Assembly (NCBI RefSeq): GCF_008831285.2 | Contig: NC_045148.1 | Span: forward strand, 15,540,802 to 15,604,801 | Origin: Nymphaea colorata | Lineage: Eukaryota > Streptophyta > Magnoliopsida > Nymphaeales > Nymphaeaceae | Length of the DNA: 64,000 bases | Reading direction: 5' to 3' | Shown: piece after piece, positions 12,225-62,649 of the stretch | Numbering within the stretch: position 1 is the stretch's first letter | Layout of the letters: every line of letters begins with the position of its first letter | Translations under genes and position numbers: made by a program | The notes under the pieces: model-generated | Told to the model about the DNA's origin: nothing | Databases searched by the model: none | What the model saw: the letters and a program-made list of their open reading frames with translations, nothing else

Positions 12225-12230
12225 CACGTG
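12225..12230. promoter_or_regulatory. G-box core upstream of the receptor kinase
   Basis: Palindromic CACGTG about 250 bp upstream of the chosen ATG at 12480. G-boxes bind plant bHLH and bZIP factors. Function here is inferred from position only. Confidence 0.35.
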
Positions 12231-12310
12231 AAATGTCAAAAATAAACAAAAGAAAAAATGCCAAATGAATCCCACAATAAAACATTTATTAAAAAAAACC
12301 CGTTAGCCAA

Positions 12311-12353
12311 CTTCCTCTCTCTCTTTCTCGCTCTCTCTCTCTCTCTCTCTCTG
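12311..12353 (+). repeat. CT-rich tract in the receptor-kinase leader
   Basis: Nearly continuous CTCTCT run ending about 130 bp before the start codon. Pyrimidine tracts of this kind are common in plant core promoters and 5' leaders. Confidence 0.7.
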
Positions 12354-12479
12354 AGCAAACTGTCGCTCACGCTGTCCCAGACTCTGCAGCAACCTCCCTT
12401 TCTCCTTCTCTTTCTCCCTCAAACGGGTGGGTGCTCAAGAAAAAGAGAAGGGGAAAAGGAAGAGCAAGAAGAAGAAGAA

Positions 12480-16139: not shown

Positions 16140-16440
16140 GGTGTTGTTTGACGATAATAACATATTATTACTGTCTGGTGAATCTGGTGAAAAAAAAAAA
16201 TGAAGCAGATGCACAAAGCATTTGTTACGGTATTTGAGACAAGTTTTTGTTACGGTATTTGAGACAAGTTTATGAGACAGTAACATAATGTTACTATTGC
16301 AAAACAACTTCAAAGGTGATCTACAATCCGTTTTATATGGAACCCACAATATAAACAAGCACTAGAAAGGTGTATGAAAACTGAGATTCCCTATTATCTC
16401 AAATCACCTTGAATATCATACACCAGATAAAAAAAGCCCC
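16140..16440. mobile_element. Tourist-like MITE candidate
   Basis: Flanked by TTA on both sides (16137-16139 and 16441-16443). Ends GGTGTTGTTTGACGAT and, reversed, GGGGCTTTTTTTATC are loosely inverted. It shares the string ACAGTAACATAATGTTA with the 8511-8641 element. Contains a 25-bp direct tandem duplication at 16222-16271. No coding capacity. Confidence 0.4.
16222..16271. repeat. 25-bp tandem duplication
   Basis: TTGTTACGGTATTTGAGACA plus five further bases occurs twice with an exact 25-bp offset. Confidence 0.8.
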
Positions 16441-22005: not shown

Positions 22006-25000
22006 CTAAAATCCAAGGACCTTGTGTCCCAAATTCATCAGTCTATCCAAAGCATCAGGGTGGAACTTCCTAGCAAACAGGTAGCAGACAGATGTCAATT
22101 CCCCATTATAAATGCACTGGCTTCCACCTCTCAGTCTCTTCATCAAGTCAGCGGTCACGTCCCACCGCTTAAACGTGGCTGGGTGAGCCTTGTCCGCAGA
22201 CCAGTCCACATAGGTCACGCTCCTGTTCGAATTCCAGGCCCCGAACTCTATGTTCACCATCGTCGGAATGTAATGCTCGTCCGGGCAACGATGCCGGCGT
22301 CCCTTGATCTTAACAAACTCCCTGAAATACTTCCTGTCTCCGACGATCTCCACGGCGAGCTTCCGATCCATCTCGAACCACTGCGACCCTTTTCGCCATT
22401 GCCGGCGCTTGATGACGGGGTACATTCGATCGCTGTACCGGCTGCGGCCGGACAGACTCGGATCATCGTATATCTCAACAAAGGACTGGCTCGAGTTGAT
22501 GAGGTAGTCGTAGACGACGAAGAACGGGAAGATGGGGATGCACGACTCGGACACGAGCACGAACCTCTGGTTCGAGAAGTCGAGCAGCGCGTTCGCGAGT
22601 AGGCGGCGCTCCGCTTCTACCATGTTGAGATTTCCCCACGTTACTTTCTGCGTCGCCACATGAAATTGATCTCAATCAAGACCGACCACTGGGGAAGAGG
22701 TCGAGTCACAATAGTGTTATCATGTGAAAATCGAATTTTAATGCCTAAGAAAAAAAAAATTGGCAGCGTAAATGTGACTTAAATGGTCCGGAACCCAAAA
22801 TCTGGCGTGTAAATTATCTCATTAAATCTTATAACTAGGACTTTATAATACAAACCCAACGATTCAAAATTTGTGAAATTTTGTGCAAGTTATAAAATGC
22901 TCTTTTGTACGTTGAAAGAATCATTAATTGGTGTGCTTTTTTTTCATGTTATTAGTGTTTGTTTATTACTACATGATTGAAATGTTTCATGACCTCATAT
23001 TGTCAATTTGATTCTTTCAGGCGTACGGTTTCCACATGCACTAGACACATCAATCCTAAACCCTTGGAGGGTTTCGATCCTTTTTTTTTTAAGAACCGTG
23101 TGGTAGTAGAAACACGATTGTATCAATCTACCAAAAAGATTAAATTAGACACATAAAATACTAAAACGATAAAATACTAAAACTATCGTTTTAGTATAAA
23201 CACTTTGTAAGTATTGTATCAATCTACCAAGAAGATTAAATTAGACACCTAAAATACTAAAACTATCGTTTCATCATGAACATACTTTAAAAAGATAAAT
23301 TCATCAAACACCTATAAAAGCGTTCTTAGAAGTCATGTCGAAGTGAAATGAAAAGAAAGACGTGCATCCAATTGAGAGGGATGATTACATATGCATGATC
23401 ATGGAGAGCATGTAGCATTTAGCAGAATGGGGTGCCAGACACCAAACATGGTCTACATTTCTTGGGACCTCATCTTTTAAAAGGCAAGTAAACCTTATTT
23501 ACGTGCCAAAACGTGGGGATATATACCATCAATATAATATGTTTTCATACTTTTGAAGGTCTAACTCTGTTAGATGGACAACTGAAGCAGATATAGGCAG
23601 AGCCAGGATTTTTTTCAGGAACGAGCTAAATAGGGGCAGCGTTTTGTGGGTTGGATTTGGGTAGGGCCATACTTGTGCGTTGGGTTCCTCGTGTGACGCA
23701 TGTCTCCTATCACCAAGTCCTATCACCGTTAGTGACCCTTAATAAATCTTTCCGAGCACCCAATTACTTCATTAAAGTCCTAGAACAGGAATAAAGCATT
23801 GCAGCAATTGGTGTTTTTTCATGTTACCTCACAAGGGAGCCCAAGCGTCACGAATACGAAAGGATCATGATCAAAGAAGTGATGCCTAGGTTTTTATGAG
23901 CCACATATACTTAGGTCACGACAAATTATTGATGAACAAGATAAGTACCTCCTTGTCCCATTTAAATTATTTAATGTGTTACTTTGTCGTATACCTATGC
24001 TCATCGAAAAAAGCCTATTTAATATATAAATTTTCGTAAAGTAATCAACGACAATTGCATCTTGTAATTTGCAACCAGTAATATATATATATATATATAT
24101 ATATATATTGCTACCACTGTATCTTGAATGACTCCTTTTTATTTTGTATCGTGTCTGGTACCTAAAAACAGTGATCAAATAATTCGTTGCAAATGCACTT
24201 TCGTGATAGTTTTTTCAGCACATAATAAAAAATAATCATCTTGATAACCAGCCCTCTAATATACACCGTCTGATCTAATGGACAATTAAAGAAAGAAAAA
24301 AAACATGATGGACATTTTCGTTATCTAAAGTTTATACATTAATTTTTTCTCAACGATCAATTTGACAGCTTTGATTAGATGGTTAGGTTTGTCTGTAATA
24401 CTACAGCAGAAATAAAAGAATTTCTTTCCGTGGTTTTCAAGAAACTATGGTACGTACCTTGCTTGGTATTCTTCTTCCATGGAAAACCGATTGCTGAGAG
24501 GCTGATCCATTGTAGGAGGGTCTGGTATGAATATAAATTGAGTACTTACCATCATTTCCCTTGAAGAATCTCTCCCACAGAGGTGCTAAGGGAAGAGGTC
24601 CCCTTGTCAAGAAGAGGAAGGCAACCTTGGGGACCCTCTTAAATGGATACTCTTCCACCTTGGGAACCATGGACGCCCTCCACAAAAGTTGCTCATCACT
24701 CATTCCATGCATCACAGAAGGAGGCCGTATCCATTCCCTGAGTTCACCTGCGCCCACTTCTGTGTTCATGCTATCCGAATGCCTCGAAGAATTCGTGTGC
24801 TCTGAATCATTAACACAGGCAGTGTGATCAAGTCTGGTTCGAGAAGATCTGCACTGTTGTTCATCTAACGAGGGCTGTGATCTTGTGGCGCTGCAATTGG
24901 GTCTGCTAATTGTTACGTTACAAACATGACAGGGAGGAGAACGTGAAGAGTTTTTGCCGTGAATCTGATCGCAGAGGGGGGGATTATTTGCAGAAACGTT

Positions 25001-26603: not shown

Positions 26604-29232
26604 CTAGAATCCTAAGGCTTGGGATGCCATGTCTAGTAATGTATCTAATGAATCAGGGAAAAATTTTCTAGCAAACAGGGTGCAAAGAGATGTCTCATGC
26701 CCATTATACACGCACCTATTTCCATGCCTCATTTTCCACAGCAAGTCGTATGTGATATCTAGCCTACCAAAGCCAGCTGGGTGAGGCCCACCCTTAGACC
26801 AATCGACATACGTTAAGCTCCTATTGGCGCCCCACGGGCCGAACCTTATGTTCATGAGAGTGGGAAAATAGTGCTCATCAGGAACTGGAACCGGGAACTT
26901 GTCAAACAGAGGAAAGTAAGTATTATCTGAAACTATCTCCACTGCAATTCTTCTATCCACCTCGAACCACGCCAGCCCTTTCCTCCATTGCCCGAGTCTG
27001 ATGAGAGGAGCCATGCGACTATCGTATCGGCCCCGGCCGAAAGGCCGTGGATCATCATATACATCTACAAAAGACTGCGTGGAGTTGATGAGGTAGTCGT
27101 AGATGGTGGTGAAGGGGAAGAGGGGGATGCAAGATTCTGACAAGATCATGAACCTCTGGTTCGATGGATCGAGCAGCGCATTTGCGAGAAGCCGGCGCTC
27201 AGCTTGCACTAGGCTAATATGTCCCCATTTAACTTCCTGCTCCATCAGCAAAAGAATTCTGTTAGCAATGTTCATGCATTTGGGTGGCACATAAATATAT
27301 TCGGCTGCACAAGTTAGTGCTGCTATCAAAAGATAGCCACATACAGATGCATAATACAATCACTAATTGAAAGTATCCATGTAATTTAGGCCCTGTATGC
27401 TTATATTTTGGTTGGATGCAGGTGTTCAACATAGTGAAACTATGGTCGTCCAGTTTTCTTGATTTCTTTCAATTTCTGTCGTAATGTTCACGGAGGTGAT
27501 AAGATAAGGTTATTAACATCTTTGTATATATAAAGAGCAATCCCCAAGTAAGAGGACATTGGCCTGGCTACTGTATTTGAAAAGGATGTTCTAGATCACA
27601 TGCCATGGTTGAAGGCAGAAGAGGGGTGCATGTCTTGTTGACCAGATGCTACCAAGTATAAAATATGTAGGACGTGTCATTTATATGCCTCAAGGCATGG
27701 CTGGGTATAATTTATTGCATGATCTATGCACCTGTTGGCTCATGGGATTATCTTATCTTGACCTTGACCTAGCCAATAACTTACAACAACCAAAAAAACA
27801 AAAAGAATATGCCATGAGGGTGGTTCTCATGCAATTACGTGGGACTCATTTAATTTAGAACAGAGGGGAGTTGATGTGAAAGCCAGTTCGCCATCAAATT
27901 GTAATAACCCTATGAATGATGTGTATACAATATTGGTTGATGATTTGACCATTGATACGTAGTGCATTTTCAACAAAATAGTACAAGTTTTAATTAAAAG
28001 AAATGCAACCTGTAGTATGTTTGGAATCTATGGAAGTTAAAGTACGATTCCCTTTTTTTTTTCTTACTTCTTTATGAAATAGAGATCTTGGCATCTTAAA
28101 TATATCCAAGGTCAGGTTAGATGAAGCAGGGCCAAACATAGAGCATCTGGTAGCTATTAGCTTGTCATTCATTTTCAACACCACTTTCCAAACTTGGTTA
28201 CAGATTTCCAAATTTTGGAAAATTTGCAGGCTCGGATGAAATTCCAAAAGCAAAGAGACAAAAAAAAAAAAAAAGGTCAATCGTCGACATTGTTTCCCTG
28301 TGCTACACGACTTTAGACCATAACTTCAGCGCATCCTTGAAAATACTGTGGTCTTGTTACAAGATCTATCAAGGACAATTTAATCAGAGAAAAGAGCAAC
28401 ATGGTTGAAGCTTCTCTTAATTTGAAAATTCCATGCTTTTAACGAGTTAGTATATATATAACAAGATAGACAAAGAATCCTTGTTCATATTTATTTTACG
28501 TATCTTATAATGTGCTGAACTTTCCCAAGAAAGGGCGAGCTTTCAACAATTTCACGAAATTCTCCAACTATTACAAGATTAATTGTGATCATTCAACAAT
28601 ACCAGTTGCCAAACATGTTGTGAGTAAGTTCATTCCGAGAAATTAAAGTATGAAAAAGAGAGTTTGATTCCTCCACTTACCCTGCTTGGTATTCGTCTTC
28701 CATAAAAGATTGATTGCATTGGCACAGCAACTTTGTAGGAGGGATCGGTGTGGACATAAATCGAGTACTTATCATCATGTCCCTTGAAGAACCTCTCCCA
28801 CAAGGGTGCCAAGGGAAGGGATCCCCTTGTTAGGAAGAGGAAGGCCACCTTGGGGACTCGCCTGTGGGACTGCCTGCTGTGGATCTTCGAAACCATGGCT
28901 GCCCTCCAAAATAACTCATCGTCTTCCATGCCATGATTGACAGTGTGATGCTCTGTATCTCCCTCCGTCTCAGTTCCGGCCTTCTCCCTTGTCGGATTGA
29001 GGCCGGCGGAAGCATTTGCTGCACTCTGAAGTGGAAGGAGGAAGAAGCTGAATCCTGAGGGATTGAATATGGAGAGGTGTCTGCTGATATGGAAGCTGGC
29101 AATGAAACAGAAGGTGATTCCAAGGGCAAAGAGGAGACAGTTGGGGATGAGGTTGGTCGGGTAAAACTGAGACCTAAAGGGATGAATACCAGCTTGGACG
29201 TGTTGGTGATCATCAGGTTTCTTCTTCTCCAT
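26604..29232 (-). CDS. GT14/DUF266 glycosyltransferase, tandem copy B
   Basis: Exon 1 is 29232-28681 and exon 2 is 27236-26604, joined in phase 0 (donor AGG|GTAAGT, acceptor GAGCAG) across a 1444-bp intron, giving 394 aa. N-terminal membrane span at about 28-48, then a short stem without the Cys-rich insert of copy A. Domain landmarks are [64 protein letters not shown] and PDEHYFPT. The conserved glutamate in DEHY is present. The intron falls at the same codon (after IPSR) as in the neighbours, which indicates tandem duplication of a two-exon ancestor. Predicted type II Golgi enzyme; acceptor unknown. Confidence 0.9.
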
Positions 29233-31312: not shown

Positions 31313-33344
31313 TTAAAATCCTACAGCGTCACGCCCCCATTTGAGCAACACATCTAACGCATCAGGAACAAACTTCCTAGCAAATAAGTTGCAGAGAGTA
31401 GTCTCCTTCCCATTGTACTTGCACCCATTTCCTCCCCTCATTTTCCCCAACAACTCCAGTGTGAGATTTGACTTGCCAAATCTATTTGGGTAAACAGGGC
31501 CGTGCCAATCCACATATGTCAAGCTCCTGTTTGCACACCAAGCCCCGAATTTCATGTATACAAGCGTTTGAAAGTAGTGCTCATCAGAACAGCAGATGCT
31601 TCCAAACAGAGGAAGGTAGGTCTGGTCTGAGATCATCCCCACCGCTGTTTTCCTGTTCACCTGAAACCACAAGGACCCTTTTCGCCATTGATCGATTTTG
31701 ATGTGCGGCACCATGTGATCCTTGTACCTTATCCTCGAATTGGCACTCGGTTCTTCTATATCTAGGAACGACAAGTTGGATTTCATGAGGTAGTCATATA
31801 CTGTGCTGAAGGGGACCAGAGGGACGCAAGCTTCTGACAGAATCACGAACCATTCGTTCGAGAAATCGAGCAGTGCATTCGCGAGGAGGCGCCGCTCTGC
31901 ATGTACCACGCTGATCGCTCCCCACCTCACATCCTGCCTCAGATCAGAAACAAGTGTTTGAATAAAACTGAAATAATTATGTCCTTGGTTGATAGCTGAG
32001 AACTAATTAAAAGAAAATAAGATCCAAAGTGGATAATGATCTTTGAGGTTATTTAGAGTAATTCTTCGAGTATTTACCATCTAATATTGCAATTGATGAG
32101 AGCAAAACTCTCTTAAATAGAGAGCCCTGAAGATCAGTGGATGTCTGGCAACACAAACTGAAACTACTCTATAGCATTATCTACTGCTTCTCTATCTGAT
32201 AAGAAGTTTTGAGCTTTAGGACATCGCTTTCATTTTCCCCTTAATTTTCACGGTTCATGTTTGAAGGCAAAATCCTTAGCTTCCTATAGTCTGCAGTATG
32301 CACCTCTCTGATGAAATCAATGCCGCAAGACTGTTGACAGCCTTAAATTGCTAGGAACCAGCTATATAAATTCAGGGTCCCAGCACTCTTTCGTCGGTAA
32401 TCTCAAAAACGAGTCTTCTGCCTTTGCTTTAGCATTATTTGTCTCAGTTTTGCTAATAACTGCCAAATGGACGATCTCACATTAAAATTTATCAGTATGG
32501 GCCAAATTTTCCACCTTTTTATCTTTTTGACATTGAAAAAATCCTTTTTCTTTGACTGTTGTTCGGCTTAATAGCTTTAACTAACCTGAACTATCAAACA
32601 ATACTATACGCAAACTCTCATTTGGCAGTTGTCAACAAAAGCGAAGCCTGTATTAGGAACATTCACACGTACAAAGACAAGGCTTTGTGACACAAACATG
32701 ACGACTAGGATCAGTATGTATATTATGTGAGTGATCTGCCATATTTGAAGCAATTCCTTCAAAGCTGTTGGCATATCAAAATATGATTTCTTAAAATGAA
32801 GCAACGTGAGGCATGGCAAATCATATATGAATTCTGTAGTTATATTGCACCAAAGTACCTTGCTTGGTATGCGTCTCCCATAAAAGACTGACTGTTCGGG
32901 GACCGATTCATTGTAAGTGGGGTGAGGATGCACGTAGATTGAGAAGTTGCCATCATATCCCTTGAAGAACTTCTCCCACAAGGGCGCGAAGGGAAGGGGT
33001 CCTCTTACCATGAAGAGGAAGGCGATTTTGGGGACTCTTTTGTTGGGGTATTTCTCAATGTTGGGGATCATGGAAGCCTTCCACAGCAATTCTTCATCTG
33101 TCATGTTATGATATGCAGCGCTCGCGCTGGCGCCTTTCTGCTCCTGTAATCTCAAGTTCATGGCCTCTGGATTGAGTATGAAGGTCAGGTTGCCGGAGGC
33201 ATGGAAGCCGGCAATGAGACCGATCGTGATGCCGAAGGCCAAGAGAAGAAAGTGGGAGGAAAGTTGGTAGAAATGAAACTTCAAGAAACTGTGAATTAGC
33301 CCTTGAGCTTCATGATGCTGGTGATCAGGCTTTTTCCTTTCCAT
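31313..33344 (-). CDS. GT14/DUF266 glycosyltransferase, tandem copy C
   Basis: Exon 1 is 33344-32859 and exon 2 is 31933-31313, joined in phase 0 (donor AAG|GTACTT, acceptor GAGGCAG) across a 925-bp intron, giving 368 aa, the shortest of the four. Membrane span at about 30-48, very short stem. Domain landmarks are [35 protein letters not shown] and DEHYFQT. The block that reads [13 protein letters not shown] in its neighbours reads [13 protein letters not shown] here, so three acidic residues are lost (E to Q, D to N, E to G). The catalytic-type glutamate in DEHY is kept. The frame is intact from ATG to stop, so this is a divergent gene rather than an obvious pseudogene; activity or acceptor may have changed. 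Confidence 0.87.
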
Positions 33345-35092: not shown

Positions 35093-36999
35093 TCATGGAT
35101 CAAAGGCCATGAGAAGTGGCCCGATCCGCATCAAAGGTGCAAGTGCAGTGGGAGAAAATTTCCTAGCGAAGAGAAAACAAACGGATCTGCTGTTGAGACT
35201 GTACCCGCACCGACCCGTGGACCTCATCCGCCTCAGCAACCTGACCGTCGTATCCTTGCGCCCGAACGTCGCCGGGTGCGACCCGCCCCTGGACCAGTCA
35301 ACGAAAGTCAGGCTCCGGTTGGCGTTGACCGAGCCATAATGTTTGCTCACGAGTGTGGGCAGGTAGTGCTCGTCGACGTAACAGGGCGGTGTGCAATGGT
35401 CTCTAAACAGGGCGTAGTATTTCCGGTCGGAGACAATCTCTACGGCCAGTTTCCGGTCGACTTCGAACCACTGCGAGCCCTTCCGCCAGTCGGAAAGCCT
35501 AACGTCCGGCCACATTCGTTGGCTGTAGCGCCCCCGGCCGGCTTTGCTTGGGTCGTCAAGGACTCCGACGAAGGAGTGGTTCGAGCCCATAAGGTAGTCG
35601 TAGATCGTCGAGAAATTGAACAACGGGATGCAGGATTCGGACACCAGCACGAACCGTTGGTTGGAGAAGTCGAGCAGCGCGTTGGCTAGCAGGCGCCGCT
35701 CCGCGTCGAGCATCGATGACCGTCCCCAGTGCACGGCCTGCAAGTTAGCCACCGCTCACTCAGCACCACTCGATGCATTTAAAATATCGAAATGTGCATG
35801 GCTATAAGAAATTTGGAAGAAATTAATGAAACTTTGGAAACCAAAAATGTGCTCGTGAGATCACATCATTATGTAAATGGATTTTTTTCCATATTCTTGC
35901 TCCAATCTTGAAAAGATTCAGCTTAGTCCTTGAGGTCAAATTTCTCAACAATGTAAATTAATGACGTGAACAATCATAATTTTTGGCATAAAATTGTCCT
36001 TATGAATGTCATCTATATGCTTCCATTATATGCCAGTTCATTTCTGAATTGGTTTTCTCTTTTGTTGTAAATGTGCTTCTCAAGTCACCATTTTTTTTTT
36101 TTTGCATGTTGATTGTGATTCTTAATCTTTAAGTAGGTGTCTAATTACTTAGGGTTTTGGCTTCATGGATTCAACATGGGAGGCTTTCACATGCAAAAGC
36201 AAAAGATCCATGGTTTATCAAACCTAAAATGCATGCTTTAAAATCTTCATTTTAATTTTTCAATTGACAAAATGTCTGAAGGCCCTAAATCTATACATCT
36301 CAAGCCCTGAGAATCCTAGATCAGCATACACAAGGGGAATCAAACGCCTCTTGAATGCCATTAAAACTTGTATCTTATATGCATGTCTACTTCCTACTTT
36401 TGAAGATCTATTTCATTCACTTGAAACATAAAAGTAATTGGTTCCACCATTTTGAGGTTAAGTGAAGAATGCAAACAAACCTGGCTAGGGATCCTCCTCC
36501 GGCAAAAAACCGAGCAATCAGAAGCCTCCACGTCATACAAGGGCGGGCCGTGAACGTAAATGGAAAAAAGACCATCATGTCCCTTGAAGAACTTCTCCCA
36601 AAATGGCCCCAGTGGAATGGGGCCTCTTGTCAAGAACATGAATGCCACCTTTGGAACTCTTTTGTGTGGGTAGTCCGCAACACGTGGCACCATCGAAGCG
36701 CGCCACATCAGCTCTTCATCAGTCATCGAGTGCATCAGCTGTGAGGGAGCAATCCACTCTTTGAGTAGGGCTGGTGATGAACTTGAAGAAGCAGGACAAG
36801 GAGGAGGAATGGCTGGTGTTAGGGCCAAATATGTTGTGGGCAGATACTCATAATCAGCAGGCCCAACATATGGCTTCATATAGAAGCCAATGATCATCCC
36901 TACTATCATTCCTGATCCACATAGTAAGCAGCACAGCATGATGGTCTCTACCTGGAAGTTCAATTCCTTCCCTTGCTTCATTTCTTCTGCAGATGGCAT
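35093..36999 (-). CDS. GT14/DUF266 glycosyltransferase, tandem copy D
   Basis: Exon 1 is 36999-36481 and exon 2 is 35737-35093, joined in phase 0 (donor CAG|GTTTGT, acceptor ACTTGCAG) across a 743-bp intron, giving 387 aa. The ATG at 36999 is chosen; the codon before it is TTG. The N-terminus differs from copies A-C (MPSAEEMKQGKELNFQ in place of MERK-type), with a Cys/Met-rich span at about 20-41 and a Pro/Ser-rich stem. Domain landmarks are [61 protein letters not shown] and VDEHYLPT. The exon 2 coding region is markedly GC-rich compared with that of copies B and C. It is the 5'-most gene of the array and the most divergent N-terminally; type II Golgi enzyme by family, acceptor unknown. Confidence 0.9.
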
Positions 37000-40349: not shown

Positions 40350-43300
40350 TTAGTGGCGAGCAACGAGCATTGCGATTCCGACCGCCGCAATTGCCAACGA
40401 AATCGCAGCAATGTGTTTTACCTTTATCTCTCTTCTCACGATCCTCCAAATACATGGAACCAGAAACATCAGCCCGCAACTTGCCCGGAATTTTGCCACA
40501 GAGAACCCCTGAGCACGCACAGAAAATTTAACGAACATTTTCTTGGGAGTTTCCAAACGCAAATGAATACATGCACTGAGATGGCTCCGATTCATAGAGA
40601 AAACACGGTGCACAAGCTTTATAATCGTTCACGAAAAGAGAAGCTTAAGGCCTTTGATATGCCTAGAACCATGGAATTTTAAAATCAGCATGCTCAATTT
40701 TTCATAGTTTGGAACTATTAAACAAACAAGGTATTTTGTTTCCAGAATTAGGAAACTCAAACTTGGAATTTTGATTTCATTCCAACTTAAGCAGGAATCA
40801 TGATTCTGGAGTTTTCATTCTTGAACCAAAATTCCAAACCATCAAACGCCCCCATTCCATGGTGTAATCAGGAATTTTGAGATGAGGGTCATTAGTTCAA
40901 TAACTTTCACAGTTTTAGGGGCACCACTATATATAAATGAGTAAATCAAATTTAAGGCAACAATATATAAAACTAAAGGATGTTTGTGGGGCACGTGTGG
41001 GCAAATCACCGCTACTGTCCTATTAATACATCGCAAGGAGAAGTAAGGTTGCGAATAGCTGGTATACGGTTCACTGAATACACTTACTAATAGCTGGATT
41101 GGATTCGGCTGTGCGGAATACCTTTACCATATCCAACCCACTTTTAATGCTAATGAAACGTCCCATTATCCAATTTTTCAAATGACATATTTTGTTATCA
41201 GGTGAGCAGGGTGAGTATTTGATTACACTAATAAAGATGAGAGCCGAAGTCTCTCCCCCTCTCCCAATGCCTCTCTCCTGCCCCAAAGTTTAGAGATGGA
41301 CCAGCGCGTCAGTTGAAGACTGCACTGCAGCCACCTCGCTCATCGCTTCCCCGAATTGGGCATCCATGTCATTCGTATCAACGACCAGCCACTAAATGGT
41401 TACTGACCGGAGCCAATTGTTCAAATCCCCTGGGGCCAAATAACATGCTTGGTTTCTTCCCCAGTTTCAAAGGCTATGGATACAAAGACCACTTAGGGTC
41501 ACCTGGGGTCGTTTGGCAGGAAGGACTGCCAAACGCCTTTGATGACACTCAAAAAGAACTGGGTCACATCTTAGTCCAAGTATACTAATAAAACGAGATT
41601 TTGATACTCATACTGGAGGATTATCCACATCTATCTGAGATTAAGAGCACACGGTACACAGAGAATATGACAACCGTTTGTCCATGCACTTCCTCACCCG
41701 TATGGACGTACTTGTTGATGGAAAAGAAGATGAGTGAAGATCGGCCTTGAAAATGGTGGCACATCTCTATTATGTGGCCTCATCCGGAAACAACTAAAAG
41801 AAACTCGGACTGTTGACAGTTATAATTTTAATAGGATGCTCAAAGATCACCTTTATCTGTATATTTCTTATAGGTTAATGCAGATGCTCAGAGAGAGAGA
41901 GAGAGAGAGCATGTGCGGCCGTTTTGCGCTTGATGGTGAGGAAGAAATCACATCGTTCCTGAATTCGTCTCTACTGAATATAGCAAGTTGAGCATGGCTT
42001 GCCAAATCAAACCCAACCATCAAGTTTTGATCTTTCAGCTGTCCCGACTCCTAACAAGGACATGCTGCTCATCTGGCTACTCTGAAAGAGACAAGCCACT
42101 GACACTGCTTGAGGACAGGGACCAGTCAGTAAACACATTAGTTAGCAGATCTACCTGTTCAGATAGTATACTGAGTCAGCCAAAATGATGAGAAATTACT
42201 ACGGATTTTCAGCTGACCAGAATGCCGCTGGCAAAATTACTTCTAAAAGTTCCTATATGAACACAATTTTGGACAGAGAACTGCAGTCACTTCACCTTTT
42301 GAGACCACCAATCAAAATATCTTCTCGCAGACACCATTTTCATGGAAAGATGAAAGTAAGATGGAGTTTTCTTGCCACTGGTAAATAGAAGGACGCAAGA
42401 AAGTGGAAAGTTTCTGCATCTAAATCCATGTATGGGTGAAACAACACAAATAGTCTGTTCTAGTAGAATTAAAACTTAGACGACAATAGCAGACGCCACG
42501 TGATCACAGGTCCTTCTCAGGTGTGACCCTCAACTACACTCATCTTCAGGAGAAAAGGTTGGTAGCTGGAATGGAATCTTTCCAAGGAAAAACCCTGCAT
42601 CACATCGGATCAAGTCCATGTTCAGATAAATTCAGTTAAATAAATATAGTGGGAAAACTGGTCATTTCGTTCCTGATCCCCAGTAAGCGTAACTCTATTT
42701 TCCTAAAACAACTCAAATGGTCTTCAAGATCTGGAGTTTCCATATGATTAGTAAATTCCTAGGTTCAAGCATTTGGTAGACAAATAGGTAGTATGTGCAG
42801 CAATAATAGCACCGCCCACCTGGCTAGGGCTCAAAGTTGGAGAACAAGAAAATAGCGTCCCCGTCGGGTCTCTTCCATGTTCTGGTACGTTCTGCAAACC
42901 TCCAGCTTACCCACACTCACCCACATCCTAAACTCCTCCCACCACCTTTTCTTTTTCCTTCATGAAATTATTTTGCCCTTAAAAGGCATCCATTAGCTGC
43001 TCCATTGTGCATTGAACACTTTCAACAGCTAGTAAGCCCTCCTTTGTGCATGTATATGAGGACCAGCCCTGTTCCGTATGGTTTTTCATAGTGAATTAAC
43101 ACAAGCCTCACTGTTTGTGTGTGGCCTTTGAGAGATTACTCCTCATTATGAGAGTGACCTTCGTTAACTGTGAACCTTTCTTTGCTTTCTCGTGAAAGCG
43201 TCTTTGATATCATAATACAGAAGGTCTCCAACCTTATTGTACCCCAGCAGAGAAAAATTTAAAGAACCTCAGAACATAAAAGTAAATTAATGCATCATGT

Positions 43301-46300
43301 TCAAAACTTAAAATACCTTGGGCAGCTTCCCTTGAAGTGCTAGGTGGTCAACGTGCAGTCTTACATTTGAGGAGGCATGCACCCATAAGATTGGATCTAC
43401 ATCGGCATAACATTTTGCCACGATGTCATATAGTGTTTCTGCTCCATCCTCAACTACTTTCAAGATACTGTTTTCTCGGTCTCTGCGATGACTGTAAGAC
43501 AATGCATTGTCATTATTAACAAATCTAGTTCAAAAGGAAAGTTGGGAAAGTTCATCACCCTCTTGTCCTCACAAACACGTGTTTGAGTGTGCATTCATTT
43601 TGCACGGACTATTTGAAACGATCTTGATATTATCAAAATTTTAGGCATGGATGTTCACAATTATGTCTGGGGGCCTGGGCTGCGGGCATGCCTCGGACCG
43701 ACCCTGCCCAGCCTGACCTGATTGCCCCAGCCCTACTGTCAATTGTGCACATGTGTGTGTACGTGTGGTGGGGGTTGGAAGACGTAGTTAATAGGTTGCC
43801 TTCAAAAGTTTCTTTTCCAGTCAAGATAACTCTCAACGGATCTTAAGTAGCACTAACATGCGACTAACTCATACCACCACAATGACGGCATCAAGACCAA
43901 TGGATATAGGAGGAAATGCCAAACATAAGACAAATCTTTTATTTGAAATTTGGAAAATCAGAATATATAAAGCTTTGCACCAAGAAAAAAGGATGTGACT
44001 CTAAGCTTATCAATGACGGCTGGAAAAAAATGAGACAACAGGTGGCATGACATAACATCATTGTAATCCAAAAGTAAATCATGATAAATTGTCTACGTTT
44101 TCTCATTTGAACACAAAAATTGAAAGAAGGCATCAAAACAAGGTTCATCTCACTTGAGATAACTGCAAAGCATCTGCATAGGCCAAACATTAATCCTTCC
44201 GTGCATAGGGAGAAGTGCATGTGGTTGTATCCCTAAGAATTTGTATGTCGTCTGGAAATAATCCTGCAGATAATAAATCCTCCAACACTAAATTAAATGA
44301 AATTAGAAATTGGAACATCTGGCACACTTTAGTCAAAGCTTTTCAAAGATTGAAATCGTGAACAGAAACAAATATGTATCCCTTCAACTAAATGACTTCA
44401 GAATGGAAAGCAAGCCCATGGCCCAGGATGTTATTCATGCATATATCGAGAAAAAATTGTGTAGCGACACTAACTTTATATTCACTAATGCATGAAGGAC
44501 AGGATAATAACAAGATAAAGCCATGTTTCAACTATTTATGAGAATTGTTTTCCATCTGAGTTCCAAAGTGGTGGTTCCATGTACTTAAAAAATTACAATA
44601 TCTAATATAAAAGCATTGCCAAAAAATAACATTTCAGGTTTTTACCGCCAAGATTTCTTTGGCATTGGCTCAGAAGCTTGTTTTCCATTGAAAGATCTTG
44701 AACATTAGAAATAAAAAAAAAATATGAGACTTTGATCAAAATATAATCATTAAAATATCAAAATAAACATCAAATTGATAACCTTTGTTTGAAAAAACAA
44801 GGCAATAAAAGTGCAAAACTATATCATATTCTTTTCCTTTTTTAGTTTTTTTTTTATTTTCCCACTTTTTGCCTTTTTTTTTAAAAAAAAAGAAGGTAAC
44901 ACTTTGTTCCAATGACGCAAAGAAAGGGCCATTTAAATTGGTTCCTACTTAGATTGTAAAAATGGCACCTCTGATGCTTATGTCTTTATGAACTGTGTTG
45001 CTATCAAAGGTTCGGCAGCTTTTAACGGGAAGTACTGCTACCCATTCAAGGTACGTCCATCATGAACCCCACCCAGAAACACCCTTTCACATCTATGAAC
45101 CGTCAAGGAAACTATTGTAAGTTAAGAACTTGAAATTCTAAGCTTTAAATGAAAATAGTCAGATGCCAGCTCCTTTCTGCAGATGTAAGAACTCGCTTCT
45201 AGTATAATTTTGCAGCTATCACAAAATAGCTGTGTTTAATAACGTGTGGAGGAATGTAAAAACTAAATAAGATATGCAATGGAATTCTGTCTTTAAAGAA
45301 TTTAGTGATAATAATGACAAGGTCCTAGAAAATTGTAGCCTATGGTGAGGCATTTTTTCAAAATAACATGGATAGGGGTATGGCAAGGATATAAGCATAT
45401 ATGTAGTTCACAAACAACAAAAAGTAATATTTAACAATTAACAAACTATGACTCTAGCAATGATTTAACAAAAAAAAAAAAAAACGCATATTGTCCATTG
45501 CAGCACCCCCCACCTGCACCCGCACCGCACCCAAGTCCTGTCGATTCAGGTGCAGCACTCTCCCAAAGAGTTCACGTTACTTAGGTTATAGGAGAGAGGA
45601 ACAGCAAAAATTGAGCCCTAAGTGATACTTACCCTCATGTTTCCACCAGATCGTATATCAAGAACTGCACTCCCATGTCTAAAGGCAAAAATGACTTATT
45701 AAAACCAATTGAAGCACACAATATTTCAAAAGTTAAGCAAAATGTTCATAACAAAATTTCATGGTATCACAATACAGATGCAATAGTTCATTCTAAGCTA
45801 TTGATTGACGCTGCAAAAAATGAACGAGAATTACACAGACAGAGTTGCAATTTGTTTTTGACCAATATTTTTAAGACAACAAACGCCTTGCAGAGTACAA
45901 TGCTGCTTTGAGTACACATGCGCAAACATGTCCTCCTGTGATATTTATGCTTATTAGAAGCCCGGAAATTAATAAGTCATAATGAACACGCCCAAAGAGA
46001 AAAAACTAAGATCACAATAACTTCAAAAGTAACAGCTCCTTGAAAAGAATGGTGAAGGCCTTTTCATTGAATAAATGCAAAATACACTGACATCGACTTC
46101 TCAGGCATCAAGGAGAATTACTTAACACACGAAAAATGGAGATAGTGCAACCTTTTGTATGAACGTCACCAAAACAACAGAAGATTAAAAACCACGAGCT
46201 AGAGAAGAATTTAGATTTTTATAGAATACAGATTTTCCTGTGGGCCAAAAGAGAATGAAAAAACAGAAGCCACAAGGCACTAGGTGTGCATGGTGAACCG

Positions 46301-47845
46301 CATTTTAAACGTCTAACTGACCATTGGCTTACTTGAAGTTACTGTAGACTACCTAATGGCCTCAGAGAAAAGGAACTCACCCAACACAATGGTCACCAAC
46401 AATTAGTAAGCGTGTATTTGTGTGCAAAAGTGCCATGTGGCCATCAGTATGCCCCTGCAAAGTGGAAAATCCACTGACAAGGCACTAGGTGTGCATGGTG
46501 AACCGCATTTTAAACGTCTAACTGACCATTGGCTTACTTGAAGTTACTGTAGACTACCTAATGGCCTCAGAGAAAAGGAACTCACCCAACACAATGGTCA
46601 CCAACAATTAGTAAGCGTCTATTTGTGTGCAAAAGTGCCATGTGGCCATCAGTATGCCCCTGCAAAGTGGAAAATCCACTGAGAACTGAATGAAGGACAC
46701 GTAAATCATCAGAACATTATAAATAGTAGATGAAAATTAAATAATGTCAAGCCAATGCTTCTTGCATAATGCAACAGATTTTTATCGTTAGACGCTGATG
46801 AAGCCAAAATGTTTACAAGATTAAACCTTATAAAAACATGATTTTCTCAAGTATACTTCTCAGACAATCAGCAAAACTAAATTGAAAGCAATCAGCAAGA
46901 GAAGAACCATTATGGAAAATCAGGCATTCAAGTATCGAAGGAAAGGAATTTGTATACGCACCATTCTACATTACACGCCTTTGCTTCAAAAAATTTCAAA
47001 AATAAAATCATCTAAAAATTTGTCATAAAATAGCATCGAAGTAACATATTTTTCCACTATAAATTTCATGGAAACAGCCGCAACGAAAGGAACAATGTGC
47101 CAAAATATCATCTCCACAAGTTGACATTCAAAGAAATTATTATTGAAAAAGAGCCAAGTTCAACAATCAGTCGAGTCAAGTTCAAGCATGCAGAAGAACT
47201 AATGCTAACTAAGCTTCTCCTTCCCCAACTTTGTTGGGGGACTTTTCTTAGTCCTCTAAGTCAACAAGCCCGAGTGGGGGACTCACAAAATCAGCCATAA
47301 CTGCATTATTCAACTTATCCGAGTGGTTATTTTTTGTCAACTTTAGACCGTAATGGAACATACATTTGGTGTCTTTATCTAGAAGAGAAATCAAAGTGTG
47401 GCTAATGCAGCATCAAGATGCTACACCTAGGTTTTCCTCACTTACCCTCTAAAAGTACATTCTGTGTGCTATCGATTTTTTTTTTTTTGCACTTAATGCA
47501 CTTCTACTTTTTCCTAATGCCCTTCACTACTATATTAGAATTAATATTTAGCTCTAGGAACATAAAAACAGCTAGTATCTCTCTGACTGTTTCAAGAAGG
47601 TAACACAGGAAGTCTAGAACATGTGCATAGAACCTTTAAGCTGGGAGCCCTTCAGCGTATAGAAATTGAAGGTTAAGTGGACATGACAGGCCACAGAAAT
47701 TAAACAGAACCATGACAATATGAAATTTAGATAAAATCCAAATGAACCAATAGAAGATGAATCAAGTGGTAAGAACTTAATTGAATAAACAGGAAATGCA
47801 CTTCTTCCTCATATAGGACGCAGGTGCAAAAATAAGTGCAGGACC

Positions 47846-47878
<33 letters not shown>

Positions 47879-50800
47879 AGAGAGAGAGAGAGAGAGAGAG
47901 AGGAGGGGAAGGAAGGGAGTAGGGGAGAGAGAGAATTGATGATGAAGAGCACTGGAATCATTGTGAACAAATAGTCAATAGTCATAAGACTCATAACAAT
48001 AAGTTAGTTTCTTTTCATTTTTATTAATCAATATAAGCAGAAAAATTAGCATATTCAATCAAATTAAGAAAAGTATCATTATTCACATTTTATAACCATA
48101 ACAAATTTACAAAAAGGAATCATGAAACAAGAAACAAATCAAATAAAAAAGAACTATACTTGATGTATTATCTTTATAAACTAATAATGTGTACTAAAAT
48201 GGCTTAAAAACTTTTTACTTCATTTTTTTGATATACATCGACTTCATCCAGTCTGGCAGATCCTCCTTAAAATGAACACTCAAACATACAAGATGAACAT
48301 ATGGACCAAGACACTTGGAGATATGAAAATTTTTATGGCAAAGATAAAAATATTTTTTGTGTGGCAGAAGTTTTTGCTGGACATCAGTGCATATCAGCTA
48401 AAGGAAGCCACAGATACTGCTAGTCATGCATGCAAAGCCAACCGCCTTTGCTACACCAAAACTCTGTATGCATGTTCAACAAGTTCAATCTACAGCAAAA
48501 TGTTCAGAGTGCACTGTAATTACTGGAGCAGCAATAACTTCCAGTTCATGTCCAGCAATGCATATCCTTTCATCACCACATACAGGAGTATAAGGTAGAT
48601 GCCACAGATCTGCCAAACAGTTAAGAAAAATATGAGAGAGAGAGGCAGAGAATACAAAAGAGAGAAAGCAATCTAGATTACAGGGAAGGACAGTATGTTG
48701 GAGCAACATCATCCTAGATCTGAGAGAAGTGGAATTGTAATGAGAACACAGAATATTGAAAAAAACTCTCCACCAAAAAGTATTCTTAAATATCCAAAAT
48801 CAGAACCTTACTGATGATACATTTGATTTTTCCTTCTCATGCTGAGACCTAGATGGAACAGCAATTTCTTACAACTTACCAGTATTGACAACATCCAGGT
48901 GTGGCCAACGCCATATTTAGCTTATTAATCACTGATATTTTCCTGATTCTTCTGCTTTATTGGCTTTTATGCTAGAGAAATTAAACTTCAAATGATTGAC
49001 TCATCTATAAAGCTTAAGCATATGAAAAGTACATCTTTCAATGTCCATGAACTATAACTGCATGTTCATTGTGCAGACATTGATCAATCAAGATATTGAC
49101 AAATCATGACATGGAACTGAAGACAAGTTTGAACCATTTAATAGAACCCATTTCTACTGCCAAACTATGAACAAATTGCAGATTACTGTGCCCCTTTTTT
49201 TCATCCTTGGAAGGAGCATTACCATGACATCAAGAAAATTATTCTTTGCTCTGGAATCAGCAAAATATCAGAGAAGCAACTTTTTAACTAAAATTAAGAT
49301 CCAACATAGCCTTCTCTACAGTTAATTGAGATCCAACATAGTCTTCTGTACAGGCACATGTTCAAGTACCTCTGAAGTAAATTGTCTCAAATTTGATCAT
49401 ATTTATGAATTACATGATTGACTTAATATGAATAGATCTTTGATTCGACAAAATTTTGCTTGCATACAGGATTACCTGGCATTTCGACAACAGAAAAGAA
49501 AAAGAAAGCAGTTATGAGAACTCCAAACTTGTGGTTCAAAAACATATATCTGTCCACATCGGATAAACACAATTCAGAACAATGTTTATCAAATAAACCA
49601 TGCAGATGACATCCACAGCCAAATTAGGGAGCCAGTAGAAATTAAAAATTAAGATCAGAAAGGCAGTTGACAATCTTTGTGAATCGCTTTGTTGCAAATC
49701 AGCTCTTTAGATTCTCACGTAATATTTCTGCTGTGGAACTGCTCAGGTCATCACATCCTTTATAAAGCCTCAGTGTATCAATGGGTCGGACAAGTGCCTG
49801 AAGAGGTTTAACTGATGAGAAGTGTCCAGGATTACAGTTATGCTACTTTTCCAGTTGTTGCTCTGAAATTCAAGGTTGTATGTTGGTCAGCTTTCTTTTT
49901 TGTATTTAATGTCAAGTCTCACAACTATATCATTCGGACCATCAGCATGAAATCCTTCAGCGATGGTTCAACTCAGATACCTGAGATAATGAAACCCACT
50001 GATAGCTCCACAAGAAATATTCTCGACGCTTCATCATATGTCTCAGACTATATGTCAACTCAGAAGAAAGGTTCTGGATGCTTCATCATATATTTGAATA
50101 TTGCAGGCCTATCACGATGGAGATACAAGGAGGCCGTTTGCCTATCTGGCTCATCCAGCAATTTCCCCCATCTCTCATTCTTATCAATCCAGCAGAATTG
50201 AAAAGAGTCAAAAGACTCCAAGCGGTTATATGCTCACAATGATATCTACCTGCACTTTGCTTCATGTAAGACTATACATAAATGACAAATGAACAAGAGC
50301 CAAAGAACACATATATCAGTACAATGGTCTGCACTCTGCAGTATAATTATTGAAAAATAAAATCAAGTGAATGAAAATTGGAAAGAAGACAATGCATCCA
50401 CATTATTAACACAGATAACAGTACAATTTTCATTTCAATAACCAAATCGTTAAAAAACTTACTTTGTGCACTTGTATAGACATCATATAGATATCTTTAG
50501 GATGATGAAAAACCCCTCGAAATAACTTGACTTGCATGTAAATTCTAGCATATTAACTATAAACTATCAAATAAATGAACCTTTTCCAATCCGAGACATA
50601 GTTCTTTCATGTGCAATAAGAACAGCATCAGGGTTGCACCGCTGGATGACTGATAGACCTGAAAGCAAATTCAGCACATGGACTTGATACTTCAAGAAAC
50701 ATCAATATGTCATATTCAATACATGTCAAAGAGGAAACCTGAGTCCTGACATCCATCAATTTTTTCCAGATTTTAGTGAGAGGCTGGTTACTTGTTCATC

Positions 50801-53800
50801 CTATCTAGAAAATTACCAATCAAAGTTTGTGCAAAATTGCCATTTGTTATCATGATTTCCATGTAAATTTTTTGTTTTTATTTTTTCATAAAAAGAGTTG
50901 CCGGCTCGCATCTACTACGCATCCACTCATGGACCATATTTTATATAGACTTTGACCCAAAAGCAGAATCCAACAACTTCAACGTGATCAGCCTAGTCTA
51001 TGTATTGTGTTTGGCTTAACCATCACCAGATAATCAGTGAAAATCACATATGAAAACATGAAAAAAAAAAAAAACCATTGTCAGATGTAGATGTAACCTT
51101 ACTGTCATAATTTAGTGTAAAACAATATACATGCAATCATAAACATGGTCCAGATGTTAATCTTGGCTTTTCTTGATTGAGCAGGAAATAGGACAAGAAT
51201 ATCTGGATCTAAGACACCACCAATTTGGTATCAATAGATACGTCAACATTCAGCTTGCAACTGACCAACCAACATAAGAAGCAAATTTAACCGGATCTCT
51301 CTAACAACTGACCCATTGTGAAGTTATAGCATATCACATACAAGTGGACTGCATCTTGGCTTCTTTGAATGTTATCTTCAAAATTCACAATATCATTCCT
51401 TAATTCATTATGTTTCAACTGTATGTTCAAGTTCAATATCAGCAGCTGCGTTCATGCTCCTGTTGTGGCTTTTTGCTGATTGATGCTAATCATTAAATCC
51501 TTTGTACATATTATGTCTTGTTTTCATGATAAGTTTGGAGTCTAACTCCCCGCAGGTTTTGATTGAAAGTTCAATGTCTGCCACTAAGAGAATAAGAATG
51601 CATTCACGAGCTTCATGAAGTGAACATAGAAAAGCATCGCAGAAGAGACCATTTATCTACCCACTAACATCAAGTCTCTTCAATATATGTCAGAATTGGG
51701 TTCACTATTGAAAAAGCACTATCTGTACATTAATTATTGCCAACAAAAAAAAAATTGCAATTTGATCATTATTATAAGAAGTTTGCACTTATAAACAATG
51801 GACAACAGCATTGACAATTGCAAAGTCAAACGTGAAGAACAAGAAGCCAAGCACATCCCTCATCACATCAGTTCTCGAACACATTAATGTAATGGCAACA
51901 ATTTTAAAGTTATATGTTATCTATAGTTTACATGAGTACATCAAGCTTAGGAATACAGATCCAAAGGAACTAGAGTAGCTCAGGAACAGCTAAGGTAAAC
52001 ATTACCGTCAACATGATCATGATGATGATGAGTAACAAAAACCACTAGTTTTCTCGGCAATGCAGTCACAATCTCCTCCAGCTGTTCCATAAGGTCATGT
52101 GTTAATGAATACATCACACATTAAACTATCTATAGATAAAAAATTTCAAGGTAAATGTGCATAATTTACCATAGGATGCAGTGCTGAATGGCAACCAGGA
52201 TCAACTATAAGAGCATCTCCATAGACAGAAAAGCCTGAATTTGCAAAATTATGGGCACAAGTATCTGGTGCAATAACAACTAGGTTTGTGGTACGAAATG
52301 GCCTTCCTGTTCTACTGCCCATAGGTAAAGCAATAACTCCTAGAGGATATTCCTGAATACAGCATAAAAACATGCATTTAAGTAATGGTGAGGAGTTGTT
52401 TCAGCCAAACAAGAAGAAGATTGCAAAAGCATTTTTCATGGTATTTTTTGTGCCAAATGACTAATATAATCCCAAACATGTAGAGGCCTTTTTGGTTCAA
52501 GACATGTCAGACGAGGGTCAAAAAGCAATGAGCAACTTACAACCCACTGCCAGGATAAATATTTTAGAAACGATCACAATTTCATCAAAGAAAGAGCATA
52601 TTGTCTCTCTCTCAAATATAGAGTCCCAATTATGGTTCTTATACTTATTATTACAAAAATTTGTTGAAATATTTACTACACATCAAAGGGCACTTCAAGT
52701 ATCATCCCATATGTATTTAATACAATAGACAGGGGAAGCCTTCCAACACAAAGTTATATCTTGCACTTCTCTCAAAGAAGGAAACAAGTAATGACTAACT
52801 TGAACATCAGCATAGGGAAATCTGTATCAGCAATATGGGACATGCTTTCAGATATAAAGAACAACCTATGCAGCTAAGGCTTGTGAATATACTAAATAAT
52901 GAGAGAAAAACAAAAAATGGTAGAAGATTTTATGACAAAAAAGAAGAAGACTAGATAACTGCATCCACAGTTCCAAATGTTCAACCGTACTTATTGATCT
53001 GTAATACCAGATCATAAACCATCTTGAGTATACAACAGAGTGCCCAAATACCAGGAAGAAACTTAAACAGTATGCACGAAATATTATTGCAATCAGAAAA
53101 ATATTTCTATTCTGAATTTTTTCTGATGCGTTATCAAGTTTTGTTCCTGAATATAAATATTTTCAGTTAACCAACTTACTTGGTAAAGAAACTTCTTGTT
53201 GATTTTGAATTTCGACAAAATGGATGAATCGGCTAAAAGACCAGAAACCACCAGAGGCCCCAGCCGACCATTTTTCCGTTCCACTTGAACAAGCATGGTT
53301 TTCAAGCTCAAGATACTCATCCATTTGAGCCCTACAATACCGAAGCTTGAGAAAATTAGATGCCTATAACAATAAAGGCTTATTAAGTTCATGCGCGACC
53401 AAAAAATGGAATAGTTATGGCTGGACAAGTTTAAAATAGAGCCATACACCCATGGCATTACAATCAGAAGCCTAAAATCGATCATAGACCAGTTTATTTT
53501 CCCAAACAGAAGTCAGGGAACCATTCAGATTATATTGCAAAACCAGTTTCCATACATTTAATTCTGGATCTAACAGTAGCATGCAAGATAATGTGTTCAA
53601 ATCAGAGTCGCTAAGTTAATCCCACCCAGAAACAGGTTTTCATTGTGAAATCATTGAAACTTAATGGAATATACAGATCTTACAAGGAAGCAATAGATTA
53701 GGTAGAAAGAGAAAAAGGAAGTCTTTGAAGTAAAAGAACAAGGGAATCAGGATTTCATTGGTTGGGAATCAGGCTCGTGCTTGGTAATCGGTTGCCTAAC

Positions 53801-55239
53801 GGATTCCACTACCAGATTAGGAGGCAAGATTCTTTTTTCTTACTCTGAGTGATTCCAGTAACTATGTCTATTATCACAAACATGCCCTTTTTTTTCATAG
53901 TTAATTAACACGGGAACCTTGGAAGTAACTGCAGATGGTCTCACAGACTTTCATTGGGTGCAGCTTAGTCGCTGCATATTATTATTGTTCTTAATTTTCT
54001 AGCATTCATCTATGCTTCATATCATCAAATTGGCAGTTTAGCAACGATAAAATCACAAAAATTTATACTAAAAGACCTTGACGCTGAATGCCACTACTAA
54101 CTTTTACTGATTACTGACTATATCTGAAAAGCTGTATCTTAACAAAATTTATAGCCACATTTACGAAGTCCAACCTGATGAAACTGAGCAGTTGTGCACT
54201 AAGCTTCCATGTATAAACAGAGTATGAACACGATGATCTGGTCCAAATTCAGGTTCTTCAACATGCTTCAGAAACTTCCAATGCCGGAAACTTGATTTTT
54301 CCATGCCTGCTGCAGCAAGAACCTAGAATAACACTTGTATGACCATTACAGAAATGCAAGAGCAATAAATTTTTCATCACAATCATTTATAATAATAATA
54401 TAGTCTTGGACTAGGTAGTCAAAAGCTAAGTTATCAAAATAGGCACTAGTGGTCGGACTAGTCACCCATTCTGGCTAGGCACTGGTCAGCAGTCTATGGA
54501 GCCCGCCCTTTCAGTCTGCTAGGCTCACATAGCGGCCTAGCCGATAGTCATGGACTTGACCGACTAATCAATGACTACTGACTAGTCATCCACCGCCGGT
54601 AATGAACTTTCTTTCCTTTTTCCTTTTTAAATAGATTACCTAGATTAACTTAGAAATAACATTAAAACGTTAACTTAGAAAATGTAACATTAAACAAGCG
54701 AAAGCCATTAAAAACAAAAAATAAACAGCGTCTAATAGCAAGAAAAATTTCCTCCCATAGGAAGGTGAATATTGTTGAAATTTAGCCTTCTCAAACAGAA
54801 ATCCTAAATTGCTAACGTAATTATTTCCTCGCTAAGGTGTTATAAACACGTTCCTGCATTCGCACTGTCTCTCAATGTAACAAAGAACATTCCACTTCGT
54901 CTATGTTCCCTGTTCAGCAAAATCACAATCCGCACAGTCGAAATCAGAAAATCTAGGTTCAAAAGATACCTGAGCGACCGCTGATTCAACATTGAATTTT
55001 CGGAGATCGATGCTATCCACGTAAGCATCCCAGCTTTCAACAAGGAAACTCGACTCTGACTCTCCTTCCAAAAAGTTGAGTGCAGCAGAAGGCAGATCCC
55101 AGAGGTCGGAGTCAAGGTAACTCTGGTATTCTTCTCCGACCGGCATGTCCGGTGGTAGCTGCTTGGCGACGAGAAACTCCTCATCCGAAGGAGACCTGAT
55201 TACCACGGCGAGCCTGTGAACCACCGGAAAGGCAGCCAT
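40350..55239 (-). CDS. Metallo-beta-lactamase hydrolase, LACTB2/At4g33540-like
   Basis: Twelve exons reconstructed on the reverse strand: 55239-54970, 54322-54175, 53331-53180, 52352-52170, 52081-52006, 50658-50581, 48609-48524, one of 46659-46586 or 46454-46381, 45678-45633, 44263-44154, 43491-43317, 40508-40350. All junctions are GT-AG and phases match, giving 518 aa. Residues 1-190 resemble the plant Nudix-like leader (DLWDLPSAALNFLEGE). The metallo-beta-lactamase core carries HHHHDH at 269-274, GHTDGH at 332-337 (His333), Asp352 in VGD and His392 in MHGRI, so all expected metal ligands are present. A LACTB2-type winged-helix follows (about 408-466, ASSNVRLHVDHLA). The C-terminus ends in a hydrophobic run (about 497-516) after a basic patch, a possible membrane tail. 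Human LACTB2 is an RNA endonuclease; the plant substrate is not known to me. Introns hold only anonymous AT-rich sequence and the repeats listed. Confidence 0.9.
40690..40853. mobile_element. Truncated Tourist-like MITE in hydrolase intron 11
   Basis: Rich in GGAATT/AATTCC words and ends CCATCAAACGCCCCC, the complement of the GGGGGCxTTTGATGG end typical of the 58893-59298 family. The left end is missing. Confidence 0.38.
41891..41909. repeat. (GA)n microsatellite
   Basis: Short GA run read directly, inside hydrolase intron 11. Confidence 0.8.
46272..46681. repeat. 205-bp tandem duplication containing hydrolase exon 8
   Basis: Units 46272-46476 and 46477-46681 are each exactly 205 bp and differ at a single base: G at 46413 in CGTGTATTTG versus C at 46618 in CGTCTATTTG. 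Each unit contains a complete 74-nt exon 8 (46381-46454 and 46586-46659) with its own acceptor TTTGCAG and donor GGGTGAGT. The one difference is nonsynonymous (Thr in the 46272 unit, Arg in the 46477 unit). Such high identity indicates a very recent event, or an assembly artefact. Confidence 0.95.
47846..47903. repeat. Compound (AT)n(AG)n microsatellite
   Basis: AT run at 47846-47873 followed by an AG run at 47877-47903, in hydrolase intron 7. Confidence 0.9.
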
Positions 55240-62569: not shown

Positions 62570-62649
62570 AAAAAATTATCGATTACAATGTGATCTATGA
62601 GCAATATCAAAAAAATTATCGATTACAATGTGATCTATGAGCAATGTGA
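62570..62649. repeat. 40-bp tandem duplication
   Basis: AAAAATTATCGATTACAATG with its following TGATCTATGAGCAAT recurs at an exact 40-bp offset (62571 and 62611). Confidence 0.85.

Follow-up and report, generated by a model that had tools for sequence, protein, structure and literature searches.

A near-perfect tandem duplication of a frame-breaking internal exon in a metallo-beta-lactamase-fold gene of Nymphaea colorata

A gene of Nymphaea colorata carries one internal exon, exon 8, in two nearly identical tandem copies of 74 nt each. The locus raises the question of whether these copies are a natural pair of mutually exclusive exons or a new lesion, and of what the duplication would do to the messages of its host gene. 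We addressed this with an analysis of the window, by which we mean the whole 64-kb stretch of DNA examined, which sits in a 24.3-Mb contig of a 408-Mb assembly.

The duplicated unit and its host gene

A repeat finder and TRF agreed on two abutting, head-to-tail units of 205 nt on the minus strand, unit A at 46477-46681 (upstream in gene order) and unit B at 46272-46476 (the downstream copy). Aligned without a gap, the units were identical at 204 of 205 positions, and the sole difference was a minus-strand G at 46619 in unit A against a C at 46414 in unit B, giving AGA (Arg) in A and ACA (Thr) in B. In unit A, exon 8A is preceded by 22 nt of intron 7 and followed by 109 nt of intron 8. Exon 8A (46586-46659, minus strand) reads GHTDGHMALLHTNRRLLIVGDHCV plus 2 nt, and exon 8B (46381-46454, minus strand) reads GHTDGHMALLHTNTRLLIVGDHCV plus 2 nt; the acceptor of each copy is ...TTTGCAG, the donor is GTGAGT, and the encoded peptide is GHTDGHMALLHTN(R/T)RLLIVGDHCV. 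The repeat finder, TRF, and the alignment thus confirmed a preliminary description of this DNA, which had reported two 205-bp units one base apart, each with a whole 74-nt exon 8 and its splice sites. Between the exon copies lies a spacer of 131 nt with GT-AG ends (46455-46585, minus strand), whose A+T content (0.56) is below that of every other intron among the 11 listed for the gene, a count that includes the spacer. With a TRF score of 815, the 205-bp pair was the strongest of 19 tandem-repeat rows in the window, the other 18 scoring at most 152, and the repeat is not a chance match. We note that the intron end copied in each unit, AGTGGATTTTCCACT (46666-46680 and 46461-46475, minus strand), could fold into a 6-bp hairpin immediately upstream of the acceptor. 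The boundary of the duplication falls 1 base outside this potential hairpin.

The host gene (42517-55239, minus strand) was modelled with 12 exons and encodes a metallo-beta-lactamase (MBL)-fold protein of 491 residues when one exon 8 is used. All 12 modelled exons are open, and GT donors and AG acceptors were found at every modelled intron. Exons 4-11 are supported by domain matches and by alignment to solved relatives, and exons 1-3 and 12 only by open frame and splice sites. Exon 7 (48524-48609, minus strand; 86 nt, donor gtaatt) ends at 48524 and exon 9 (45633-45678, minus strand; 46 nt, acceptor gcctttag) starts at 45678 in the gene model, as had been described. In a Pfam search with a 270-residue draft translation, the MBL domain (PF00753, Lactamase_B) scored 40.1 bits against a cut-off of 22.7, and the BLACT winged helix (PF17778) scored 27.4 bits against a cut-off of 22.8; Pfam returned no family for exon 8 alone or exon 1 alone. 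None of the 8 NCBIfam families listed reached its cut-off, the best being GloB with 56 bits against 200.8. The best structure matches were GloB (PDB 6rz0) and human LACTB2 (PDB 4ad9).

The host protein contains HHHHDH (motif II), GHTDGH (motif III), and VGD (motif IV). That exon 8 holds the metal-ligand motif GHTDGH and the aspartate of VGD was borne out by alignment to human LACTB2 (4ad9), in which the exon covers the motif III His and the motif IV Asp. The aligned LACTB2 residues are His145 and Asp164 in the numbering of PMC4770246, where, in the part of that paper available to us, endoribonuclease activity is demonstrated for the human enzyme. Judged from its sequence, the host is an MBL-fold hydrolase related to LACTB2 and glyoxalase II: it shares motifs II-IV, the MBL domain, and the BLACT winged helix with that branch but differs from it in the ∼230 residues that the model places N-terminal to the MBL domain (the match begins at residue 235-236). 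We take Arabidopsis AT4G33540 to be its probable counterpart. The host and LACTB2 differ in the part of their alignment that contains the Arg/Thr site, so either residue may be tolerated. The 33 MBL relatives found in prokaryotes (23-48% identity) were too remote to show which of the two residues is ancestral. The host gene was found once in the assembly: a DNA search gave a single match, its own locus, and a protein search gave 8 matches, all inside the gene. In neither search did the assembly yield a single-unit paralogue or haplotig, a missing match being no proof of absence.

Elsewhere in the window, four minus-strand open reading frames (22006-22671, 26604-27359, 31313-32002, and 35093-35755) matched Core-2/I-branching enzymes (Pfam Branch, 163.6-208.7 bits), a tandem cluster that we presume to consist of BC10-like glycosyltransferase genes. 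A leucine-rich-repeat receptor-like kinase gene (12246-15180, plus strand) lies in a G+C-rich stretch; G+C is 0.586 over 12001-14000 and 0.339-0.466 in the other 2-kb steps of the window. The open reading frame at 4439-5062 (plus strand) matched the hAT transposase C-terminal dimerisation region (PF05699, 26.7 bits).

Reading frames of the possible messages

We determined how each combination of the standard exon 8 sites would be read. Messages with A only or B only are open and stop after 491 residues. Joining A and B led to a stop after 372 residues, at a TAA within copy B, skipping both copies led to a stop after 337 residues, in exon 9, and retention of the 131-nt spacer led to a stop after 356 residues. 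Two earlier claims therefore stood, namely, that double inclusion shifts the frame to a TAA in the second copy, which is true with the standard sites, and that skipping both copies breaks the frame. The A+B message stops 25 nt short of the end of exon 8B, and the later modelled junctions are 71 and 181 nt downstream of the stop. As stops upstream of later exon junctions generally trigger nonsense-mediated decay (NMD), decay of this message would be expected.

A scan of alternative sites, covering every AG and GT between 46720 and 46230, widened this picture. With a single exon, three solutions preserved the frame together with both motifs, namely, A, B, and a form of B that is 30 nt longer. 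The same was true of 25 two-exon combinations, 16 of which were listed after a site filter; one of these 16 has GTGAGT as the donor of both copies and takes an alternative CAG acceptor for exon 8B. This CAG (46474-46476, minus strand) is the opening triplet of unit B, 19 nt upstream of the standard exon 8B acceptor. Exon 8A joined to the 93-nt exon 8B that begins after this CAG is in frame and encodes 522 residues, with the metal-binding segment repeated. The preliminary description had held that the exon must be used exactly once; this is correct for the four standard sites but not when exon 8B is entered through the CAG at 46474-46476, so the rule holds for the standard acceptor only. Modelled lengths between exons 7 and 9 are accordingly 74 nt with one copy, 148 nt with both copies out of frame, or 167 nt with both in frame through 46474-46476. 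We also observed a CTAG at 46485-46488, to which A would be joined out of frame by length (74+104 nt).

Exclusive exons, buffering, or artefact

An established mutually exclusive pair would offer an Arg and a Thr version of one loop. The copies have the form that such a pair needs, as they are equal in length, 74 nt, not divisible by three, and compatible in frame, the CAG and GTGAGT sites are intact in both, and the standard protein needs a single copy. Plant mutually exclusive exons are treated in PMC3266260, PMC6243048, and PMC6829547, of which we draw on the parts available, and the routes to exclusivity given in the available portion of PMC6071210, which cites plant cases, include NMD of double inclusion and competing structures born of the duplication itself. 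Like Dscam, 14-3-3zeta, and MRP (as presented in that portion of PMC6071210) and MAF1/FLM of Arabidopsis (in the accessible text of PMC3266260), all of them mutually exclusive pairs, the locus has two alternative exons in a row. It differs from these systems in that the units diverge at 1 of 205 positions, no short spacer separates the exons, both copies have GT-AG introns, and no competing structure was detectable; it further differs from MAF1/FLM, a plant example whose two exons of 19 and 15 residues carry distinct interaction motifs (PMC3266260, same text), in that the exon 8 copies differ by a single residue. The 204/205 identity includes the intron, and intron copies as alike as the exon copies point to youth or recent conversion rather than to a long-kept pair. 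The spacer is longer than the shortest modelled intron of the gene (131 against 88 nt), so joint inclusion is not blocked by its length, and no other block of the kinds looked for at the locus (U2/U12 conflict or competing RNA structure) was found either. The longest helix between the unit and intron 7 was equalled by 62 of 100 shuffles and that between the unit and intron 8 by 9 of 100, the latter being the closest to a signal among the structure tests. Duplex energies were likewise at shuffle level (whole unit, 10/60 and 37/60; intron part, 13/60 and 43/60), in a test that allows very large bulges and is cruder than the helix test, and the local fold was ordinary (z 0.62). The competing-structure model of Ivanov and Pervouchine (PMC6071210, in the part available) was therefore set aside, as duplexes, helices, and fold were not clearly above shuffles. 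An NMD filter against double inclusion is possible, but double inclusion is not always frame-breaking here, the A+B message through 46474-46476 being open. Of the two alternatives in the preliminary description, the natural exclusive pair thus found no support in the identity of the units, the spacer, the GT-AG ends, or the complementarity, and the new lesion is favored; a regulated exon switch is unlikely, and an established pair is very improbable indeed. A related reading, to which we give a small chance, is that of a newborn exon pair before divergence. It would have several usable outputs, among them the protein from A, that from B with the other residue, and a protein in which the motifs occur twice in frame, made by way of the CAG that the duplication has placed next to new upstream sequence; splicing and NMD would filter the rest.

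If the lesion is new, splicing might still buffer it fully, such that copy B is skipped, nearly all messages contain copy A, and the allele is near neutral. Only 22 nt of intron 7 were duplicated, and the original branch-point region is therefore lost at the acceptor of copy B. We counted branch-point-like YTNAY motifs in the 60 intron nt upstream of each exon copy. Copy A keeps the old end of intron 7 and has three of them, whereas copy B, preceded by donor-side sequence of intron 8, has a single one, at -45. The last 50 nt upstream of copy B have the lowest A+T (0.50) and T (0.32) of the 11 introns, the next lowest values being 0.60 and 0.34, which favors skipping of copy B and hence buffering. 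On these predicted features, the upstream context tilts usage to copy A. An acceptor scan from the motif at -45 would meet the CAG at 46474-46476 before the standard site; the CTAG at 46485-46488 would be met earlier still in such a scan. Against full buffering, introns 1 and 5 of the host gene likewise end in 60 nt with just one YTNAY, intron 4 is almost as poor in T as the sequence upstream of copy B, and counts of consensus motifs predict splicing poorly. Both exon copies moreover share the same acceptor, the same donor, and the same final 22 nt of intron, and the spacer is long enough to be spliced. In the human CFTR exon 22 duplication, both copies are found in tandem in the mRNA (PMC12110946, in the part available), and joint inclusion is for this reason a fair default, though the case comes from another kingdom. 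Full buffering is therefore possible but in our view rather unlikely. A quite different account is that of an assembly or polishing artefact, in which one genomic unit is represented by two overlapping or heterozygous sequences joined end to end. The copies are almost identical, and the lone mismatch, which is nonsynonymous, might reflect either heterozygosity at that site or an error. The breakpoints are sharp, though, neither the window nor a 200-kb sample of the same genome contains a single N, so no gap join lies nearby, and the 24.3-Mb contig suggests long reads. We regard an artefact as an outside chance.

Origin of the duplication and its significance

Taken together, these data lead us to consider it probable that a recent, repair-type duplication arose in one step and gave a leaky or null allele. 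At the junction, the units have one contiguous T in common with the flanks (left flank ...TTCT against unit end ...TTGT; right flank GGCT against unit start CAGT). An overlap of 1 nt argues against slippage, unequal crossing-over, and homology-driven exchange. We propose that patch-mediated repair, in which a double-strand break is closed by end-joining with fill-in, duplicated the 205 bp in this nuclear gene; the segment copied would have been the whole of exon 8 with 22 nt of intron 7 on one side and 109 nt of intron 8 on the other. We took a plant substitution rate of 2.6e-9 to 6.5e-9 per site per year. Dividing the one difference in 205 by twice this rate gives an age of ∼0.4-0.9 million years, with a Poisson range of about ten thousand to five million years; if gene conversion has acted, the copies may be older than they seem.

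Small tandem duplications in plants have reportedly been ascribed to patch-mediated double-strand-break repair by Vaughn and Bennetzen in 2014. For comparison, we searched 200 kb of the same genome with TRF, in 20 pieces of 10 kb (18 spread over the genome and the two flanks of the window; 200,000 bases). Six arrays with a unit of at least 25 bp and a match of at least 97% were found, with units of 34, 35, 47, 50, 79, and 84 bp, the 84-bp array having three copies and the 47-bp array lying in a window flank. The window itself has three such arrays, with units of 25, 40, and 205 bp. The 205-bp unit is the longest of these nine, and no unit of at least 100 bp occurred in the 200-kb sample. The window's 40-bp and 25-bp arrays, at 62570-62645 and 16221-16271, have a 100% match and are perhaps the outcome of the same kind of event as the exon duplication.

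In rice, small tandem duplications are the main source of insertions and are attributed to patch repair of adjacent nicks, their share of events falling from 70% to 5% by 200 bp, with some events above 1 kb (PMC7971508, in the sections available). The locus resembles that class in being a near-perfect, head-to-tail duplication with sharp ends and a 1-nt overlap in a genome that holds smaller events. It differs in that 205 bp is beyond the dominant size of the rice class as described in those sections, and its putative mechanism is read from the junctions. The duplications of CFTR exon 22 (PMC12110946, in the part available) and DMD exon 2 likewise repeat a whole internal exon with flanking intron in tandem, but in CFTR, according to the same part of that paper, the reading frame survives the duplication, whereas both copies with the standard sites break it here. 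Among the papers listed by a literature search, none described a plant exon duplication like this one, which is not a claim that none is in print. With hundreds of megabases exposed, some duplications of whole small exons would be expected, by reasoning rather than by count, and as a feature of the genome the duplication is ordinary.

Under this origin by repair, the output would probably be mixed. Some messages would contain both exon copies and the premature stop and be degraded by NMD, while some messages with one copy would yield normal protein, more probably from copy A, where the original branch-point region is still in place. Other messages may join the two copies in frame by way of the CAG that opens unit B. 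The outcome would be a leaky or null allele and a loss of dose rather than a regulated exon switch. The 12 open exons fit a working gene, which speaks against a damaged allele, yet so soon after the duplication decay need not have set in. A leaky or null allele is the most probable consequence, with full buffering possible.

Automatic annotation could hide this duplication by picking one copy. If the duplication is real and expressed, the locus may be a hypomorphic allele of a gene found once in the assembly, and should the copies be a newborn exon pair, it would be a natural experiment on the survival of an exon duplication. A real and expressed duplication would also offer a clean test of how the plant spliceosome treats near-identical, frame-breaking exons, in which the splice sites are identical, the exons are one base apart, and the branch-point context differs.
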